Assembly (NCBI GenBank): GCA_021159235.1
Contig: JAGGSF010000112.1
Span: 1-15,854, forward strand
Source: Deltaproteobacteria bacterium
GTDB lineage: Bacteria > Campylobacterota_A > Desulfurellia > JAGGSF01
Reading direction: 5' to 3'
DNA length: 15,854 nucleotides
This document shows, piece by piece, positions 326 through 6,855 of this stretch (its first letter is position 1; every line of letters begins with the position of its first letter). The translations under genes and the position numbers were made by a program. The notes under the pieces were generated by a model. It searched no databases. It had not been told where the DNA came from and saw nothing but the letters and a program-made list of their open reading frames with translations.

Positions 326-331
326 CTCCTA
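326..331 (-). promoter_or_regulatory. Stop/Shine-Dalgarno overlap between ctpA and the yibQ-like gene
   Basis: TAGGAG on the minus strand contains the ctpA TAG stop and an AGGAG that touches the next ATG with no spacer. No better ribosome binding site is present, and the frame of the two genes is the same, so reinitiation after ctpA is the likely route. Confidence 0.5.
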
Positions 332-1570
332 CTTGTGCTCTATAATTTCAATAGCCCTTAAAAGACCAATAGCCCTGGAAAGTTGATAATCCTCTACCCT
401 TTCAGCTTTAGTTTTTAACTTCTTTAAAGCTTCAAGATGGTGGGGAAGGTTTTCCTCTCTTAATACCTTGCTCTCTTTTATCTCTAACTTGCCCTGCGGC
501 ACATATATATCAGGCGTAATACCTAAAGCCTGTATGCATCTTCCAGATGGTGTGTAATATTCTGCTGTAGTAAGGCTAAGTGCAGAGCCGTCTTCCATCG
601 GGAATATCGTCTGCACACTTCCCTTACCAAAACTCTTTGTTCCCATAATAATGGCTCTCCTGTGATCCTGAAGGCAACCAGCAAAAATCTCCGATGCACT
701 GGCCGAACCACCATTTATCAAAACTACAATCGGATAAGTAGGTTCATCTCCACTGTTCTTAGCATAATATATCTTGTCCTGCGTTTTCACCCTCCCCTTG
801 GTGGAAACAATCACCCCATCTGTTATAAACAGGTCGGCAGTCTCAATCGCCTCTGAAAGGAGTCCTCCTGGATCATTTCTCAAATCAATAATTAACCCCT
901 CTATCTTCCCGGAAAATCTCTTCAAAACCCTTTTCACTTCTTTTGCTGTTCCATCCTGAAATTGTAAGATATGAATATAACCAATCTTGGGAGAAATCTC
1001 CTCATACTTTACGCTCTTTATATGAATTATATCCCTCACAATGGTAATATCTATGGGTTTCTTAATCCCTTCCCTGGACACCGTTATTTTAACCTTTGTC
1101 TGGGGCTTCCCCCTTAAAAGCTTTACCACCTCCTTCAATGGCATGCCCAATGTACTCTTACCGTTTATACTCAGAATTACATCGCCTGCTTTTACTCCCG
1201 CCCTATAAGCAGGCGTATCCTCTATGGGAGAAATCACTGTAAGCAATTTATTCTTAATTGTTATCTCTATTCCTATACCACCAAACTGCCCTTTCGTTAA
1301 AACCTCCAATTCTTTAAACTCGTCCTCACTCATATAGGAGGAGTGAGGATCTAAGGAACTCACCATTCCTTTGATAGCTGACTCTATAAGTTCTTTATCG
1401 TTCACATCTTTGACATACTGTTTCTCTATAGTTGCAAGCACATCAGAAAAAATTTTCAGCTTGCCATATTTCCCTCTGTTTTCTACATGAGCCGAAATAG
1501 AAACAACGCTCAAGACAAATAATACAACAGCAAAAATAAAGATCAAAAAACCCGTGTTCTTCCTTTTCAT
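329..1570 (-). CDS. ctpA: Carboxyl-terminal processing protease (S41 family, PDZ-containing)
   Basis: A 413-residue periplasmic serine protease of the CtpA/Prc type, a usual length for the family. Residues 7-27 are a signal sequence or membrane anchor. Residues about 35-85 form the N-terminal helical region, with the family's SSLDPHSSYMS (71-81). A PDZ domain follows at about 90-180 (GGIGIEI at 97-103, GDVILSING at 129-137). The catalytic core has GGSASASEIFAG (287-298), with Ser291 the probable nucleophile, and SFGKGSVQ (313-320), with Lys316 as general base. The C-terminal end (QLSRAIGLL) is also typical. These proteases trim or degrade periplasmic proteins from their C-terminal ends, including cell-wall hydrolases in some bacteria. 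Its start overlaps the envC-like stop as ATGA and has a good Shine-Dalgarno (GGAG, 6 bases upstream). Adjacency to ftsEX-envC suggests a part in cell-wall turnover at division; that is inference. Confidence 0.95.
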   Translation of the reverse strand: MKRKNTGFLIFIFAVVLFVLSVVSISAHVENRGKYGKLKIFSDVLATIEKQYVKDVNDKELIESAIKGMVSSLDPHSSYMSEDEFKELEVLTKGQFGGIGIEITIKNKLLTVISPIEDTPAYRAGVKAGDVILSINGKSTLGMPLKEVVKLLRGKPQTKVKITVSREGIKKPIDITIVRDIIHIKSVKYEEISPKIGYIHILQFQDGTAKEVKRVLKRFSGKIEGLIIDLRNDPGGLLSEAIETADLFITDGVIVSTKGRVKTQDKIYYAKNSGDEPTYPIVVLINGGSASASEIFAGCLQDHRRAIIMGTKSFGKGSVQTIFPMEDGSALSLTTAEYYTPSGRCIQALGITPDIYVPQGKLEIKESKVLREENLPHHLEALKKLKTKAERVEDYQLSRAIGLLRAIEIIEHK

Positions 1571-2709
1571 CTTTTTCTCCTTATATTTTCACAGTTCAAC
1601 CACTTTAAAGGGTTTAATGCCAATACCTGTTTTCTCAACTCAAAATGCAAACATCCTGTCACTTTTCCCAGCCGTGTACCTGCAGCTACAGTATCATGCT
1701 TTCTTACCTCTACAGTATCCATTCCCGCATAGATAGTATAATACTTATTCAAATGATTCAATATAATTGTTCTGCCATATCCTGGCACATCACCCACATA
1801 ATCCACACATCCCGAATAAACCGCATAAACACCCTCTTCTTTATCCACGCTAATATCTATCCCGTTATTCTTAGTGTAAATACCTATCACCTTATCATAC
1901 TTCTTTCCAAACCTTCCAATTATTGTGCCCCTTTTTACTGGAAATATCAACTTCCCTCTAAGTAAATGAAAGGTTTTCTTTGCTGCGTATCTCTTCTTCA
2001 ATTTCTCTTTAACAATTCTTACCAACAACGCTTCTAAATATCTCCTTCTCTTCTTCAATTCACAAACTTGAGATACATACATCCTTTTGCTATGTTCGAG
2101 TGATGCCAATAGATAACTTTTCTTTCTTTTCTCCTGAACCAGTGCCCTTTCCTGTCTGTTTATACGAGATACCACTCTTTTCTTCCTAAAAACAAGTATC
2201 TTTAACCAGTTCTCATCCTTCTCCAGTTTTTCCAGTCTACCCGTATATTTCAACAACCTTTCCTTAAAAACATTAGCAGTCTTTCCCAGCATACACATCG
2301 TCCAGGAGGGAGATATATCTGTGTGAGAGGGAACATATTGCTCTTTCCTGAAAGATACAATGAGAAAAGTCTTAAAATGGGCGTTTAAAAGTCTTTCATC
2401 TTCTTCTATTTCCCTTCTTAAACATCCTATATCATCTTGCAACATCGCGATGCGCTTTTCAATTTTCCTCACTTCTGCCTTCTCCTGCCTGATCTTCCTG
2501 TGAAGTTCTCTTATTCGCTTGTTAATAGATATAATTTCTTTCTTTGTCTGGAAATATCTTCTTTTAATTATGTTGAGCTTCTTTATTTTACTCTTTATTT
2601 TCCCCTTCACTTCTTTCAATTCTGTATGAATGTGTGTGCTTTTATCCGCACAAAACACATTTGGAGAGAAAAGAAATAGTAAGACCACAAGAAAACTAAA
2701 GCTCTTCAT
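1567..2709 (-). CDS. EnvC-like murein hydrolase activator (coiled coil plus degenerate LytM/M23 domain)
   Basis: 380 residues. A signal peptide (1 to about 20, ending PNVFCA) predicts export. Residues about 28-115 and 145-248 are Lys/Arg/Glu-rich and look like long coiled coils. Residues about 252-372 are a LytM (peptidase M23) domain: GRFG at 265-268, NNGIDI at 281-286, GYGRTIILNH at 310-319, LHFE at 354-357. The zinc site is broken. The first His (HxGID) is Asn281, the YAHL His is Gly329 and the catalytic His of HLHFE is Cys353; Asp285 and His355 remain. This matches EnvC, whose LytM domain is inactive and instead activates N-acetylmuramyl-L-alanine amidases under FtsEX control. Its start lies 12 bases inside the ftsX end, tying it to FtsEX. 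AAGGA directly touches the ATG, and an in-frame TAA two codons upstream excludes an earlier start. It is not a working endopeptidase as far as these residues show. Confidence 0.88.
   Translation of the reverse strand: MKSFSFLVVLLFLFSPNVFCADKSTHIHTELKEVKGKIKSKIKKLNIIKRRYFQTKKEIISINKRIRELHRKIRQEKAEVRKIEKRIAMLQDDIGCLRREIEEDERLLNAHFKTFLIVSFRKEQYVPSHTDISPSWTMCMLGKTANVFKERLLKYTGRLEKLEKDENWLKILVFRKKRVVSRINRQERALVQEKRKKSYLLASLEHSKRMYVSQVCELKKRRRYLEALLVRIVKEKLKKRYAAKKTFHLLRGKLIFPVKRGTIIGRFGKKYDKVIGIYTKNNGIDISVDKEEGVYAVYSGCVDYVGDVPGYGRTIILNHLNKYYTIYAGMDTVEVRKHDTVAAGTRLGKVTGCLHFELRKQVLALNPLKWLNCENIRRKR
1577..1580 (-). promoter_or_regulatory. Ribosome binding site of ctpA
   Basis: GGAG on the minus strand, 6 bases before the ctpA ATG and inside the 3' end of the envC-like gene. 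It fixes the ctpA start and suggests ctpA can be initiated independently of the ATGA coupling. Confidence 0.7.
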
Positions 2710-3541
2710 TCCTTACAGCAAAAAGTATGCATAAGAATGAAACAAATATATTCAACAAAACTGCTATCAGAGAAAATCCACAAATGGATAGAAAATCAGA
2801 GTTGTCTAATAAATTATGTATAAAATCCCTTATAAAAACAAAAACTCCAATCGATGCAAAACCGGCCAGGACTATCCCTGCAAAGCTTAAAAGAAACGCT
2901 CCAGTCATCAAAAGCATCTTTATCTTCTCTGAACTACATCCTAAGAGTTTCAACGTTAATACATCCTCTCTTAAATCGAGATAAAACAGCCTGCCCGTTA
3001 ACAAAAAAATGGCGATTTCTACCACAATAAAACCACATAAAAACAGAAGAGAAAAAAAAAGAAAGTGCTTATAAGAATGCTCGTAGGACATGATAAGGCG
3101 TGATGGAAGGAGAACATCCTTCACACTTGAATATTGAAGCAGTTCATTCTTTATGCTGCTTATCTTCTTCTCCTTTAAAAAACGAGGCTTTACAAAGATA
3201 CCTGCAGAGTATGGAAGGGGATTGGAAAGATGCCCGGGCAACTTCACTCCCATGTTCTTTTCCACTATATTCAAAGCCTGTTTTGAAGAGATGAGATGCA
3301 ACGATTTTATCCATTCCTTCCTTTTTATACGCATACAAACATTGTTTATCTTTTCAAGTGGGGTATTTTCATGAAATATGATATATACATGAACACGAGA
3401 TTTAACCATATTAAACCGACAATTGATAAGTAAAAAAACCAAGAAAATTAAAACAAGCATCAAGGTGAGAAGGAAGGATGTAAAAAAACACGTTCCACTC
3501 AGGGTCTTATTCTTGCCCAGAATCCTGACTATGTATTTCAT
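2696..3541 (-). CDS. ftsX: Cell division protein FtsX
   Basis: 281 residues with the four-helix plan of FtsX: membrane segments at about 17-40, 159-183, 210-237 and 250-275. A periplasmic loop of about 115 residues follows the first helix. It contains NPLPYSAGIFV (107-117), whose NPLP motif is a hallmark of the FtsX extracellular domain. The stretch REDVLTLKLLGCSSEKIK (191-208) between helices 2 and 3 is the cytoplasmic coupling segment that contacts FtsE. The protein is the membrane half of the FtsEX complex, which sits at the divisome and controls a periplasmic partner, here most likely the EnvC-like protein encoded next. The ATG has an AAGG about 8 bases upstream. The gene begins 35 bases inside ftsE and ends 14 bases inside the envC-like gene. 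The N-terminal cytoplasmic tail is short (about 16 residues). Confidence 0.93.
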   Translation of the reverse strand: MKYIVRILGKNKTLSGTCFFTSFLLTLMLVLIFLVFLLINCRFNMVKSRVHVYIIFHENTPLEKINNVCMRIKRKEWIKSLHLISSKQALNIVEKNMGVKLPGHLSNPLPYSAGIFVKPRFLKEKKISSIKNELLQYSSVKDVLLPSRLIMSYEHSYKHFLFFSLLFLCGFIVVEIAIFLLTGRLFYLDLREDVLTLKLLGCSSEKIKMLLMTGAFLLSFAGIVLAGFASIGVFVFIRDFIHNLLDNSDFLSICGFSLIAVLLNIFVSFLCILFAVRNEEL

Positions 3542-4199
3542 GTAATTTGCCTTCGTTCAAAAAAAAGACCCTTCCCTTCAATGAAGGAAGGTCTTTACTG
3601 GAAAACATGAGGATGCCCTTGTCCTTACAAAACTCCCCTTCCATTATATCTATTACCTTTTCCACAGAAGAAGGAGAAAGATACCTAAACGGTTCATCAG
3701 CCAAGATAATAGGAGTATCGAGGGAAAAGATCATAGCCAGAGAAAGTCTTGCCTTTTCTCCAGGAGAAAGAAACATAACCTTTTTTTTTAAGATATCCCT
3801 CAAGCTCAATTGAGACAAAAACCGTTCTATCAAAGGCATAAATGTCATCTTCTTCCTATCCCTCATCTTATTGATAAATAAAAGGTTATCTAAAACACTC
3901 ATATACTCAAACAAACGAAAGTTCTCAAAAAAAACACCCATATACCGTCTCAAAAGCAGTATATGCTCATAATTCTTCAAGCTGGAGGTATCTACCCCCA
4001 TTACACTTACCCTGCCTCTTTCAGGGTAAATGCTGCACAGGATAATCTTAAGCAATGTTGTTTTTCCAGAGCCTTCACCACCTATAATCTTTACTATCTC
4101 ACCCTTTTTCAAGCACAAATTTATACCCTGCAGAATCCAGTTGTCTCTATCGTATGTTTTATATACATCTTCCAAACAAACTAATTCTTCCCTAACCAT
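3507..4199 (-). CDS. ftsE: Divergent cell division ATP-binding protein FtsE
   Basis: 230 residues, normal for FtsE, the nucleotide-binding subunit of FtsEX. Visible in order: A-loop Tyr16, Walker A GGEGSGKT (40-47), FtsE-like FENFRLF (91-97) where the family usually has FQDFRLL, signature LSPGE (144-148), Walker B PIILADEP (163-170), then YLSP (173-176) and FSSKD (199-203). Walker A Lys46 and Walker B Asp168/Glu169 are intact. Four other conserved positions are altered: the Q-loop Gln is Glu92, the first signature Gly is Pro146, the D-loop Asp is Ser175, and the switch His is Lys202. It should bind nucleotide, but hydrolysis may be weak or absent. The ATG lies 19 bases inside the transketolase C gene, with only a weak upstream purine stretch, so coupling is likely. 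Position directly before ftsX makes the identity firm despite the divergence. Confidence 0.9.
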   Translation of the reverse strand: MVREELVCLEDVYKTYDRDNWILQGINLCLKKGEIVKIIGGEGSGKTTLLKIILCSIYPERGRVSVMGVDTSSLKNYEHILLLRRYMGVFFENFRLFEYMSVLDNLLFINKMRDRKKMTFMPLIERFLSQLSLRDILKKKVMFLSPGEKARLSLAMIFSLDTPIILADEPFRYLSPSSVEKVIDIMEGEFCKDKGILMFSSKDLPSLKGRVFFLNEGKLHEIHSQDSGQE

Positions 4200-5104
4200 T
4201 CTTTTACCGCCATACTGATACCGGTTGCATTAAACCCAAACTTACACAGAAGATCATCACAGCTACCCGATTCACCAAAAACATCAGGCATTCCTATACG
4301 CTTCATCTTAACAGGATAATTCTCGCCCAGAAATTCCGCCACCGCACTACCCAATCCACCTAAAACCGTATGTTCCTCTATGGTTACCACTCTTTTCGTT
4401 GATTTAGCAAAATCATAGAGCATCTCTTCATCAATAGGCTTCACCGTAGCCATATCTATTAAAGATGCGCTTATCCCTTCTTTCTCCAGCAACTTCGCCG
4501 CTTCCAGCGCATACCATACCAGAAATCCACAGGCAACCAATGTTACATCCTTCCCTTTCCTCAGCACCTTTCCTCTGCCAAAAACAAAATCACCTTCTGT
4601 AAAAACAGGAGACTTGGCCCGAGATGTTCTGATATAAACCGGTCCGTCATTCTTTATGGTAGACAGAACAGCAGTATACGCCTCATTGTAATCTGCTGGA
4701 ACAACAATCTTCATATTGGGAAGAGTTCTCATTAAAGAAATATCCAATACCGCCTGATGACTGCCTCCATCCTCGCCCACATTTACTCCCCCATGAGAAC
4801 CACACAAAACCACAGGCAACTTTTGATATGCAACGGATTGCCTCACCGACTCAAATGCTCTTCCCGTAATAAATACAGCAAAAGAAGAAGCATAAGGTCT
4901 CTTGCCACACAACGCTAATCCCGCTGATACATCTACCATATTTGCCTCTGCGATACCCATATCAAAAAATCTATCCGGAAAAGCTTCTTTAAACTTTAAA
5001 CTCCTGGTTGAACCTGCTAAATCCGCATCCAGCACCACCACATCCTTGTATTTTCTTCCCAGTTCAAGCAATGCATCTCCATAAGCATCCCTAGTCGCCT
5101 TCAT
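4181..5104 (-). CDS. Transketolase, C-terminal subunit (split type)
   Basis: 307 residues covering the pyrimidine-binding (Pyr) and C-terminal domains of a transketolase-type thiamine diphosphate enzyme. The Pyr domain shows DADLAGSTR (26-34), GIAEANMVDVSAGLA (50-64) with the conserved Glu53 that activates the cofactor, and EDGGSHQA (111-118). The C-terminal domain begins near 180 (LRKGKDVTLVACG). It would pair with the N subunit encoded just upstream to make one active site. Such two-gene transketolases are common in archaea and parts of the bacteria. The start has a strong Shine-Dalgarno (GGAGGAG) and lies 14 bases inside the N-subunit gene, so the split is genuine and not a frameshift. The exact substrates (pentose phosphate sugars or another acyloin reaction) cannot be read from the sequence. 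Confidence 0.92.
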   Translation of the reverse strand: MKATRDAYGDALLELGRKYKDVVVLDADLAGSTRSLKFKEAFPDRFFDMGIAEANMVDVSAGLALCGKRPYASSFAVFITGRAFESVRQSVAYQKLPVVLCGSHGGVNVGEDGGSHQAVLDISLMRTLPNMKIVVPADYNEAYTAVLSTIKNDGPVYIRTSRAKSPVFTEGDFVFGRGKVLRKGKDVTLVACGFLVWYALEAAKLLEKEGISASLIDMATVKPIDEEMLYDFAKSTKRVVTIEEHTVLGGLGSAVAEFLGENYPVKMKRIGMPDVFGESGSCDDLLCKFGFNATGISMAVKEWLGKN

Positions 5105-5915
5105 CTATCTCCTCCAGAGCCTTTTTCAATTCCTCATCTGTTGGAGCTACACCATGATACTCCACTTTGTCTTCCATAAATGAAACCCCTTTACCCTTTA
5201 CAGTACGGGCAATAATTACAGTGGGGAATCCTTTATTCTTCTTTGCCTCTTCAAATGCTCCTATCAATTCAGAAAATTTGTGTCCATCAACAGATCTGGT
5301 ATAGAGACCAAAAGCCTTGAATTTGTCCTCCAAGGGATAGATGTTCATCACATCCCTGCACCTTCCATCTATCTGTAAAGTATTGTTATCTACAACCACA
5401 CATAGATTATCCAATCTATAATGGGAAGCAGACAGAAGAGCCTCCCAAACCAGCCCTTCATCCATTTCTCCATCGCCCACCAAGCAATAAACACGAAACG
5501 GGTTTTTGTCGAGCTTTCCGGCCAAAGCCATTCCACAAGCCTGAGACAGACCATGAGCCAGCGAACCGGTAGAAGCCTCTATACCAGGCAGATATTTGGC
5601 ATCTGGATGTCCCTGTAAGGGACTGCCCAATTTTCTCAATGTCCACAACATATTGCGGGGAAAAACACCGGCCCTGCTCAATACAGCATACAGAGCAGGA
5701 ACAGCATGTCCCTTGGACAAAACAAACCTGTCCCTGTCTTTATCGGATGGTCTTCTTGGATCATAGTTCATAACCTTGAAATACAGGCTAACCAATATCT
5801 CTACACAAGACAGTGACCCTCCCACATGCCCCGACCCCGCCACATTGAGCATTAAGAGAATGTCTCTTCTAATTTCCTTAGCTATCTTCTTCAACTCTTC
5901 CATCTCCTCTTTCAT
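5091..5915 (-). CDS. Transketolase, N-terminal subunit (split type)
   Basis: 274 residues from the chosen ATG, the pyrophosphate-binding half of a thiamine diphosphate enzyme. Key features: AGSGHVGGSLS (26-36), VLSKGH (65-70), GSLAHGLSQACGMA (117-130), and the cofactor and magnesium motif GDGEMDEG (147-154) with VDNN (175-178). It ends after the PP domain, so it needs the C subunit encoded next. A TTG six bases further upstream (5919-5921) gives a slightly longer frame. I prefer the ATG at 5913-5915 because GGAG lies exactly 7 bases before it, while only 1 base separates GGAG from the TTG. The gene starts about 38 bases inside hemD, one of the longest overlaps here. Physiological role with its partner: sugar-phosphate metabolism, or possibly another two-carbon transfer; not resolvable by eye. 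Confidence 0.92.
   Translation of the reverse strand: MKEEMEELKKIAKEIRRDILLMLNVAGSGHVGGSLSCVEILVSLYFKVMNYDPRRPSDKDRDRFVLSKGHAVPALYAVLSRAGVFPRNMLWTLRKLGSPLQGHPDAKYLPGIEASTGSLAHGLSQACGMALAGKLDKNPFRVYCLVGDGEMDEGLVWEALLSASHYRLDNLCVVVDNNTLQIDGRCRDVMNIYPLEDKFKAFGLYTRSVDGHKFSELIGAFEEAKKNKGFPTVIIARTVKGKGVSFMEDKVEYHGVAPTDEELKKALEEIDEGD
5109..5115 (-). promoter_or_regulatory. Strong ribosome binding site of transketolase C subunit
   Basis: GGAGGAG on the minus strand just before the ATG (5102-5104), the best Shine-Dalgarno in the window. It confirms separate initiation of the C subunit inside the end of the N-subunit gene. Confidence 0.75.
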
Positions 5916-6855
5916 AGACAAACTCCAACATATTTTGAATGGTAAACTCTTCTGGATAAACTACTTTCCCCCACCTCTCTAAAACCTTCGCCGTCACCGG
6001 TCCTATTGCTACAAACAAGCCCACATTTCTACTCCATTCCTTCCACATATCACCAAATAGCTTTATCGTATGCTGAACCGTGGAAGGGCTGGTAAACATG
6101 GCATAGTCAATATAACCCGCATTCTTTGCCCTCTCAAGAAAAGCATAACACAAGGGAGGAACAATATTCCTGTATAAGGGAAGCACCCTTACTTCTGCCC
6201 CTTCTTCCTTCAATCCTTTTTCCAAAATGCCCCTCGTTTCTTCTGCCTGAGGGAGAAGCACCCTTTTGCCCCTTGCATTTGATTTTATCAAAGTCTCAAG
6301 CAAATCCTCCCCTCTAAAGGTTTCTGGAACAACATCTGCCTCTATACCAAAACTATTTAATGCCTCCTCTGTCTTTTTACCTACACAGGCAATTTTCATA
6401 CTATCGAGCTTTCTTATATCATCACTTAGAAACTTAAAGAAATAATTTACCCCCACCTTACTGGTAAATACAATCCAGTCCACATCAGGAATCTTAATCT
6501 CTTTAACCAGGGGCTTAAACGATATGGAGGGAAAGGGATAAACGCAATTTCCATCCTGCTCCAATCTCATTGTAATATCTATTAGGTCATACCTCGACAT
6601 GGAGAGAAATATCTTCCTTTTACCTCTATCTCTCTCTTTGTCCCTGCTTCTCATAAGTATCAATCCCTCTTTTTCTTTTATAAGAGAGGCATCTTTAAAA
6701 AATTCAACTTCCACTTCTTCATTGCAAAAGAGAAGTATGTTGGGTGAAACACCATCTTGAATGAAAATGTGTTTTGCAACCCCTAAAGCCCTCTTCAGCC
6801 TTTCCGGAACAAGATATAAAGGCAAAGAATTTACCACAAAAACTTCTCTATTCAT
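5878..6855 (-). CDS. hemD: Uroporphyrinogen-III synthase with an N-terminal extension
   Basis: 325 residues, about 75 more than a typical stand-alone HemD. The enzyme closes and flips ring D of hydroxymethylbilane to give uroporphyrinogen III. The HemD fold seems to start near residue 78 (GKRKIFLSMSR). It continues through WIVFTSKVGVNYF (127-139), KIACVGKKTEEAL (154-166), RVLLPQAEE (198-206) and YAMFTSPSTVQ (251-261), to FVAIGPVTAKVL (281-292), the usual order of weakly conserved landmarks. Residues 4-52 before it resemble the start of a SUMT/CobA methyltransferase domain (ERLKRAL, then VSPNILLF) but lack the glycine-rich SAM-binding signature. A cobA-hemD fusion is common elsewhere, so this may be its remnant. 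The gene overlaps hemC by 8 bases without a clear Shine-Dalgarno. HemD is poorly conserved; identity rests on these landmarks plus position after hemC. Confidence 0.88.
   Translation of the reverse strand: MNREVFVVNSLPLYLVPERLKRALGVAKHIFIQDGVSPNILLFCNEEVEVEFFKDASLIKEKEGLILMRSRDKERDRGKRKIFLSMSRYDLIDITMRLEQDGNCVYPFPSISFKPLVKEIKIPDVDWIVFTSKVGVNYFFKFLSDDIRKLDSMKIACVGKKTEEALNSFGIEADVVPETFRGEDLLETLIKSNARGKRVLLPQAEETRGILEKGLKEEGAEVRVLPLYRNIVPPLCYAFLERAKNAGYIDYAMFTSPSTVQHTIKLFGDMWKEWSRNVGLFVAIGPVTAKVLERWGKVVYPEEFTIQNMLEFVYERGDGRVEEDS
5923..5926 (-). promoter_or_regulatory. Ribosome binding site deciding the transketolase N start
   Basis: GGAG on the minus strand lies 7 bases before the ATG at 5913-5915 but only 1 base before the alternative TTG at 5919-5921, which favours the ATG. 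Confidence 0.6.
6625..6855 (-). other. N-terminal extension of HemD, possible truncated SUMT (CobA) stump
   Basis: Codons 1-77 of hemD, upstream of the HemD fold. The order hydrophobic strand (VFVVNS), helix (ERLKRALGVAK), strand (HIFIQD), GVSPNILLF, then VEVEFFK parallels the first 50 or so residues of SUMT enzymes (LKAL, then a strand, then LVSPEIL). The GxGPGDP motif is absent and the remaining roughly 180 residues of a SUMT domain are missing. Recognition is by eye only. Confidence 0.45.

Follow-up and report, generated by a model that had tools for sequence, protein, structure and literature searches.

The locus studied here raises the question of what an FtsE protein can do in cell division after it has lost most of its ATPase motifs. 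In model bacteria, ATP hydrolysis by FtsE is taken to drive and reset the FtsEX-EnvC switch, and in E. coli hydrolysis by FtsEX is required for septal synthesis (PMC7343993) and for full amidase activation (PMC12505981). The window, i.e., the whole stretch of 15,854 nucleotides that was analysed (contig JAGGSF010000112.1), carries an ftsE gene in an operon, of which the order ftsE-ftsX-M23-CTP recurs in the loci of the class Desulfurellia, including those of the sister family f2. The members of the operon are as follows.

3507..4199, minus strand: ftsE, 230 aa, with degenerate ATPase motifs (open reading frame and translation)
2696..3541, minus strand: ftsX, 281 aa, overlapping the 3' end of ftsE (Pfam FtsX_ECD, PF18075, over the cut-off)
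1567..2709, minus strand: EnvC-like protein, coiled coil plus LytM/M23 domain (Pfam Peptidase_M23 and class alignment)
329..1570, minus strand: S41 C-terminal processing peptidase (CtpA), the last conserved member of the operon (TIGR00225 over the cut-off)

Beyond the S41 peptidase, downstream of ftsE, lies the start of a divergent polysaccharide deacetylase gene. The genes upstream of ftsE, which were named by eye from their translations, are a split transketolase, hemD/C/A-like genes, a polyprenyl synthase gene, gyrA, gyrB and dnaN. The transketolase at 4181-5921 consists of two genes for the N and C halves, and in the N half the longest open frame starts with TTG.

The plus strand of 3507..4199 contains many stops when read for open frames. 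The top NCBIfam family for the ftsE product was TIGR02673 (FtsE), with a score of 118.4 bits, i.e., under the cut-off of 264.85, and the identity was therefore examined by other routes. When the AlphaFold2 model of the protein (pLDDT 87, pTM 0.84) was compared with the PDB by Foldseek, the top two matches were the FtsE chains of the FtsEX complexes 8ymc and 8hd0, with other ABC nucleotide-binding domains (NBDs) scoring close; the VIA Z value of about 25 was likewise level with those of several other NBDs. The gene adjoins and overlaps ftsX in an order common to the class loci. From the operon, the fold and the tree described below, 3507..4199 is an ftsE ortholog, and because the TIGR02673 cut-off was missed, the protein was filed as a diverged ortholog outside the curated equivalog. 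The neighbouring FtsX scored under the cut-off of TIGR00439, and its AlphaFold2 model (pLDDT 81.5) has a topology that fits four TM helices, the FtsX_ECD domain and a coupling helix. The 12 best PDB matches of this model were all FtsX chains. Residues 197-201 contain an invariant LK..G, near a predicted short helix (191-199) in the coupling-helix region.

Compared with the complete set of FtsE ATPase motifs, Walker A and Walker B are present in the protein, and the Q-loop, the LSGGE signature, the D-loop and the switch His are absent. The positions are as follows.

4056..4082, minus strand: Walker A GGEGSGKT(T), residues 40-48 (GGEGSGKT being 40-47), kept; Lys and Ser/Thr in 22/22 class sequences
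3924..3926, minus strand: Q-loop position, Glu92 (in FFENF) replacing Gln (class alignment)
3762..3764, minus strand: first signature Gly position, Pro146 (LSPGE) (class alignment)
3693..3698, minus strand: Walker B Asp168-Glu169, followed by Pro170, kept (class alignment)
3675..3677, minus strand: D-loop Asp position, Ser175 (YLSP) (class alignment)
3594..3596, minus strand: switch His position, Lys202 (SSKD) (class alignment)

The initial annotation had reported the same motifs, and all of its readings and residue numbers proved right on re-check. In ABC ATPases, the Q-loop contacts the gamma-phosphate, the signature Gly caps ATP from the partner subunit, the D-loop Asp holds the partner and the switch His stabilises the transition state. 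Joint alignments place Glu92, Pro146, Ser175 and Lys202 at the Q-loop Gln, the first signature Gly, the D-loop Asp and the switch His, respectively. One alignment pairs Ser201 instead of Lys202 with the switch His, and a nearby His is absent in both. Since the fold search gave no residue-level superposition, the switch position rests on the sequence alignments, in which the E. coli FtsE ruler was used for numbering only.

The genome with this ftsE (1.13 Mb, 122 contigs) was compared with two congeners and, more widely, within a sample of 25 genomes of Desulfurellia, a class placed by NCBI in Campylobacterota; many of them are drafts split over numerous contigs. The ftsE gene was readable in 24 of the 25 genomes (the contig of G007 stops short of the gene, and two other copies are truncated by a contig end). 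None of the 24 has the Q-loop Gln, the first signature Gly, the D-loop Asp or the switch His, and all keep the Walker A Lys, the Walker B Asp and the signature Ser. None of the four canonical residues occurs in any of the 22 full-length class proteins in the alignment, with Asp in the D-loop column and His in the switch column each counted at 0/22. In families f1, f3 and f4, which contribute 20 distinct full-length sequences, the first signature Gly is replaced by P, L or I (20/20); in f2 it is replaced by S or A. A sequencing or assembly error was rejected as the cause, because two further genomes of the genus share these motifs, as do class genomes that consist of a single contig.

The four positions are canonical in 19/19 ftsX-adjacent FtsE proteins of Campylobacterota, the sister lineage in the NCBI taxonomy, whereas they are replaced in Desulfurellia. 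This group (around G210), whose assignment we infer from its Campylo_MOMP genes, has the ftsE-ftsX pair in common with the class, followed in several cases by an M23 gene. Among 64 ftsX-adjacent FtsE proteins of other phyla, Gln is kept in 63, Gly in 56, Asp in 63 and His in 59; the long-branched L136, L178, L189 and L177 were left out of this set. Outside the class, FtsE is partly degenerate in these four and in L127, L151, L158, L164 and L187. The minimum on the FtsE tree is five changes of state. The class proteins form one clade (98/72; SH-aLRT 100 with the motif columns removed), which is most simply read as one origin on the stem of the class.

Further motif changes were observed in ftsX-adjacent FtsE of the other lineages. 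In L136 (405-1298) and L187 (2229-2903), the Walker B Glu is replaced by Gln (ADQP), a change of the E163Q type, and the signature is altered. In L175 (1127-1906) and L181 (2195-2992), which represent two families, the signature is LS/LA-[RK]-GQ and the other motifs are all canonical. The protein at L177 (2210-2947) has no P-loop (SENVLAATA) and retains its ABC family match.

The dN/dS of ftsE, calculated by the Nei-Gojobori method, was 0.02-0.20 overall: 0.12-0.14 for this gene against its congeners, 0.20 for two close congeners against each other, 0.02-0.11 for pairs in other families and 0.18 in f2. Because some dS values are near saturation these ratios are rough, and none is near 1; they are mostly below the matching values of the neighbouring ftsX. 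These values indicate that the class ftsE is not decaying. Decay of a gene without an important function would agree with the loss of several motifs and with the fast-evolving stems, but it is hardly credible, given that the frame is open, that the operon is conserved in every class family and that the dN/dS contradicts it. According to the initial annotation, a functional change would be favoured by losses that relatives share under purifying selection, and given up for a second canonical ftsE elsewhere with the present one decaying. The losses are class-wide and in a single clade, with dN/dS far under 1 and with the catalytic Glu further lost in f2, and such a pair of genes was not found in the genome.

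We consider it probable that this FtsE acts as an adaptor or clamp that retains ATP without hydrolysing it, a reading that also allows for mere maintenance of the fold. The residues that hold ATP in cis are kept (the P-loop Lys, the Walker B Asp and, outside f2, the A-loop aromatic), and the partners, i.e., FtsX, an EnvC-like putative activator and an amidase, are all encoded in the genome. The FtsE of an FtsEX-EnvC-amidase system would have turned into a pseudo-ATPase on the Desulfurellia stem, and the hydrolysis cycle would not be completed. FtsE would stay on the coupling helix of FtsX and tie FtsX-EnvC to the cytosolic division machinery. The timing of the amidase may then be set by septal recruitment and assembly, or by a partner protein, instead of rounds of ATP hydrolysis, so that the class would retain the recruitment and coupling role and drop ATP turnover. 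If turnover was dropped, the relation of FtsX to FtsA, which is over the cut-off in the genome, would differ from that in E. coli, and the timing signal would come from elsewhere. The initial annotation had suggested a nucleotide-sensing scaffold; nucleotide sensing is one among several modes of scaffolding. The wider claim, that amidase control across the class runs through a homodimeric pseudo-ATPase with no catalytic set at either site and a timing signal other than ATP hydrolysis, is in our estimate evenly balanced.

The work on E. coli bears on the proposed adaptor or clamp from both sides. With the ATPase mutant FtsE(D162N)X, EnvC is recruited and cell separation is partly promoted when NlpD is present, D162N blocks septal synthesis through FtsA, and the reason why FtsE hydrolysis is needed was stated as unclear (PMC7343993). 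Activation of the amidases is blocked in the K41A and E163Q mutants, and the opening of EnvC is attributed to ATP binding by FtsE and its resetting to hydrolysis (PMC12505981). The recruitment and separation seen with D162N count in favour of a non-hydrolysing FtsE (PMC7343993); the phenotypes of K41A and E163Q (PMC12505981) and the septal block of D162N (PMC7343993) count against it. The D162N and E163Q proteins have in common with the class FtsE the expectation that ATP is held without hydrolysis, but they are engineered single changes, dominant-negative or null, whereas the class state is natural, fixed and spread over several motifs.

Conservation at three positions also speaks against the complete loss of hydrolysis. 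In families f1, f3 and f4, the Q-loop position is always acidic (Glu in 17/20, Asp in 3/20), as though it were still chemically constrained, the Walker B Glu is present in 20/20 over long branches, beyond the need of a pure scaffold, and Ser145 of the signature is invariant throughout the class. Activity can persist in ABC proteins in which a single motif is changed. It is thus conceivable that the protein hydrolyses slowly, with an altered geometry, in which Glu92 or Asp would position Mg or water, Glu169 would act as the base, Ser145 would cap ATP, and the missing His and D-loop Asp would only slow the cycle. The initial annotation had also named a different catalytic geometry, with which the invariance of Ser145 and Glu169 outside f2 and the strictly acidic replacement of Gln there would agree. 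We regard it as unlikely, however, since the losses affect four catalytic or dimer-contact positions at once, no class member has a compensating His near the switch, and f2 has neither the acid nor the base.

In f2, the Q-loop position is K or P, the signature is LSSDE or LSAYQ, the switch has no His and the catalytic Walker B Glu is replaced by Asn or Asp, with the P-loop (GKTT) and the operon intact. Profile misses had made f2 a candidate for a family without FtsEX, which was rejected when the locus was reached through the M23 gene. The A-loop aromatic, found in 20/20 sequences of the other three families, is also lost in f2, and in the FtsE of the Hippea group (L047-L055), Walker A starts LPQS.GKST, with Leu for the first Gly conserved across the genus. 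These two departures, together with the lineages that have FtsX and M23 with no adjoining ftsE or an FtsE lacking the P-loop (L177), would suit an FtsE that binds no nucleotide in vivo and only caps the coupling helix of FtsX structurally, its P-loop and Walker B being kept for folding. This is an improbable explanation, as the P-loop Lys, the Ser/Thr and the Walker B Asp are retained in 22/22 despite an identity of about 30% between the class families.

A profile search found no second division ftsX and no second ftsE-ftsX pair in the contigs of the genome; the other match to TIGR00439 is a 404-aa LolC-like permease adjoining its own ATPase. The other ABC ATPases have largely canonical motifs (one has LSEGE), and genome-wide erosion of ABC motifs was rejected on this ground. 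They belong to other families, and most adjoin permease-like genes. Degenerate ABC sites studied to date are typically heterodimeric, as in the exporters TM287/288 (PMC5216877) and MsRv1273c/72c (PMC12038006), which resemble the class FtsE in the loss of catalytic and signature residues at a nucleotide site; in those exporters, however, the second site is canonical. A canonical NBD that pairs with the degenerate FtsE and gives FtsX one active and one inactive site would follow this precedent, but it is very improbable with a single ftsX and a single ftsE in a tight operon and with the other ABC genes placed as above. As one ftsE gene supplies both subunits, both sites would be degenerate, which, if true, makes an unusual ABC NBD of this presumed homodimer.

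The EnvC-like protein has putative amidase-activator features, i.e., a coiled coil and a LytM domain without zinc ligands: Asn replaces His (NNGID in this protein) and xLH replaces HxH (CLHFE in this protein) in 16/16 class sequences. E. coli EnvC likewise lacks the zinc-ligand positions (PMC11627006). A link between the degenerate LytM and the degenerate FtsE was dropped, because E. coli pairs a degenerate LytM with a canonical FtsE. The single amidase of the genome has the longer catalytic domain (match span of 208 aa, as compared with 169 aa for the short type, found in the same class). With the FtsEX-EnvC systems of E. coli, V. cholerae and P. aeruginosa (8hd0, 8ymc, 8i6o), the locus thus has in common the ABC NBD fold, the adjoining ftsX with a periplasmic domain, the degenerate LytM protein and a longer-domain amidase, and it differs in the four replaced FtsE residues. 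No earlier report of a degenerate FtsE was found in a literature search that reached few of the subscription papers. A class that lost the motifs, beside a sister group that keeps every one, offers a natural experiment by which recruitment, EnvC opening and the effect on FtsA can be set against ATP turnover. These relatives of Hippea and Desulfurella, which metabolise sulfur, would be nature's own test of the view that an ATP-burning FtsE controls cell-wall cutting.

Loci with an ftsX gene but no adjoining ftsE were also observed. In L124, L125 and L126 (family f82), L135, L142 and L147, ftsX is followed by an M23/EnvC-like gene; the M23 protein appears catalytically intact in L126 and L142, and the L126 locus also contains genes for ApbE, heptaprenyl diphosphate synthase component I and a small protein. 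In L129 (1-2947), the order transketolase C, ftsX and M23 is like that of JAGGSF010000112.1 with the ftsE slot empty, and it is possible that FtsE was lost there while FtsX and the activator stayed.
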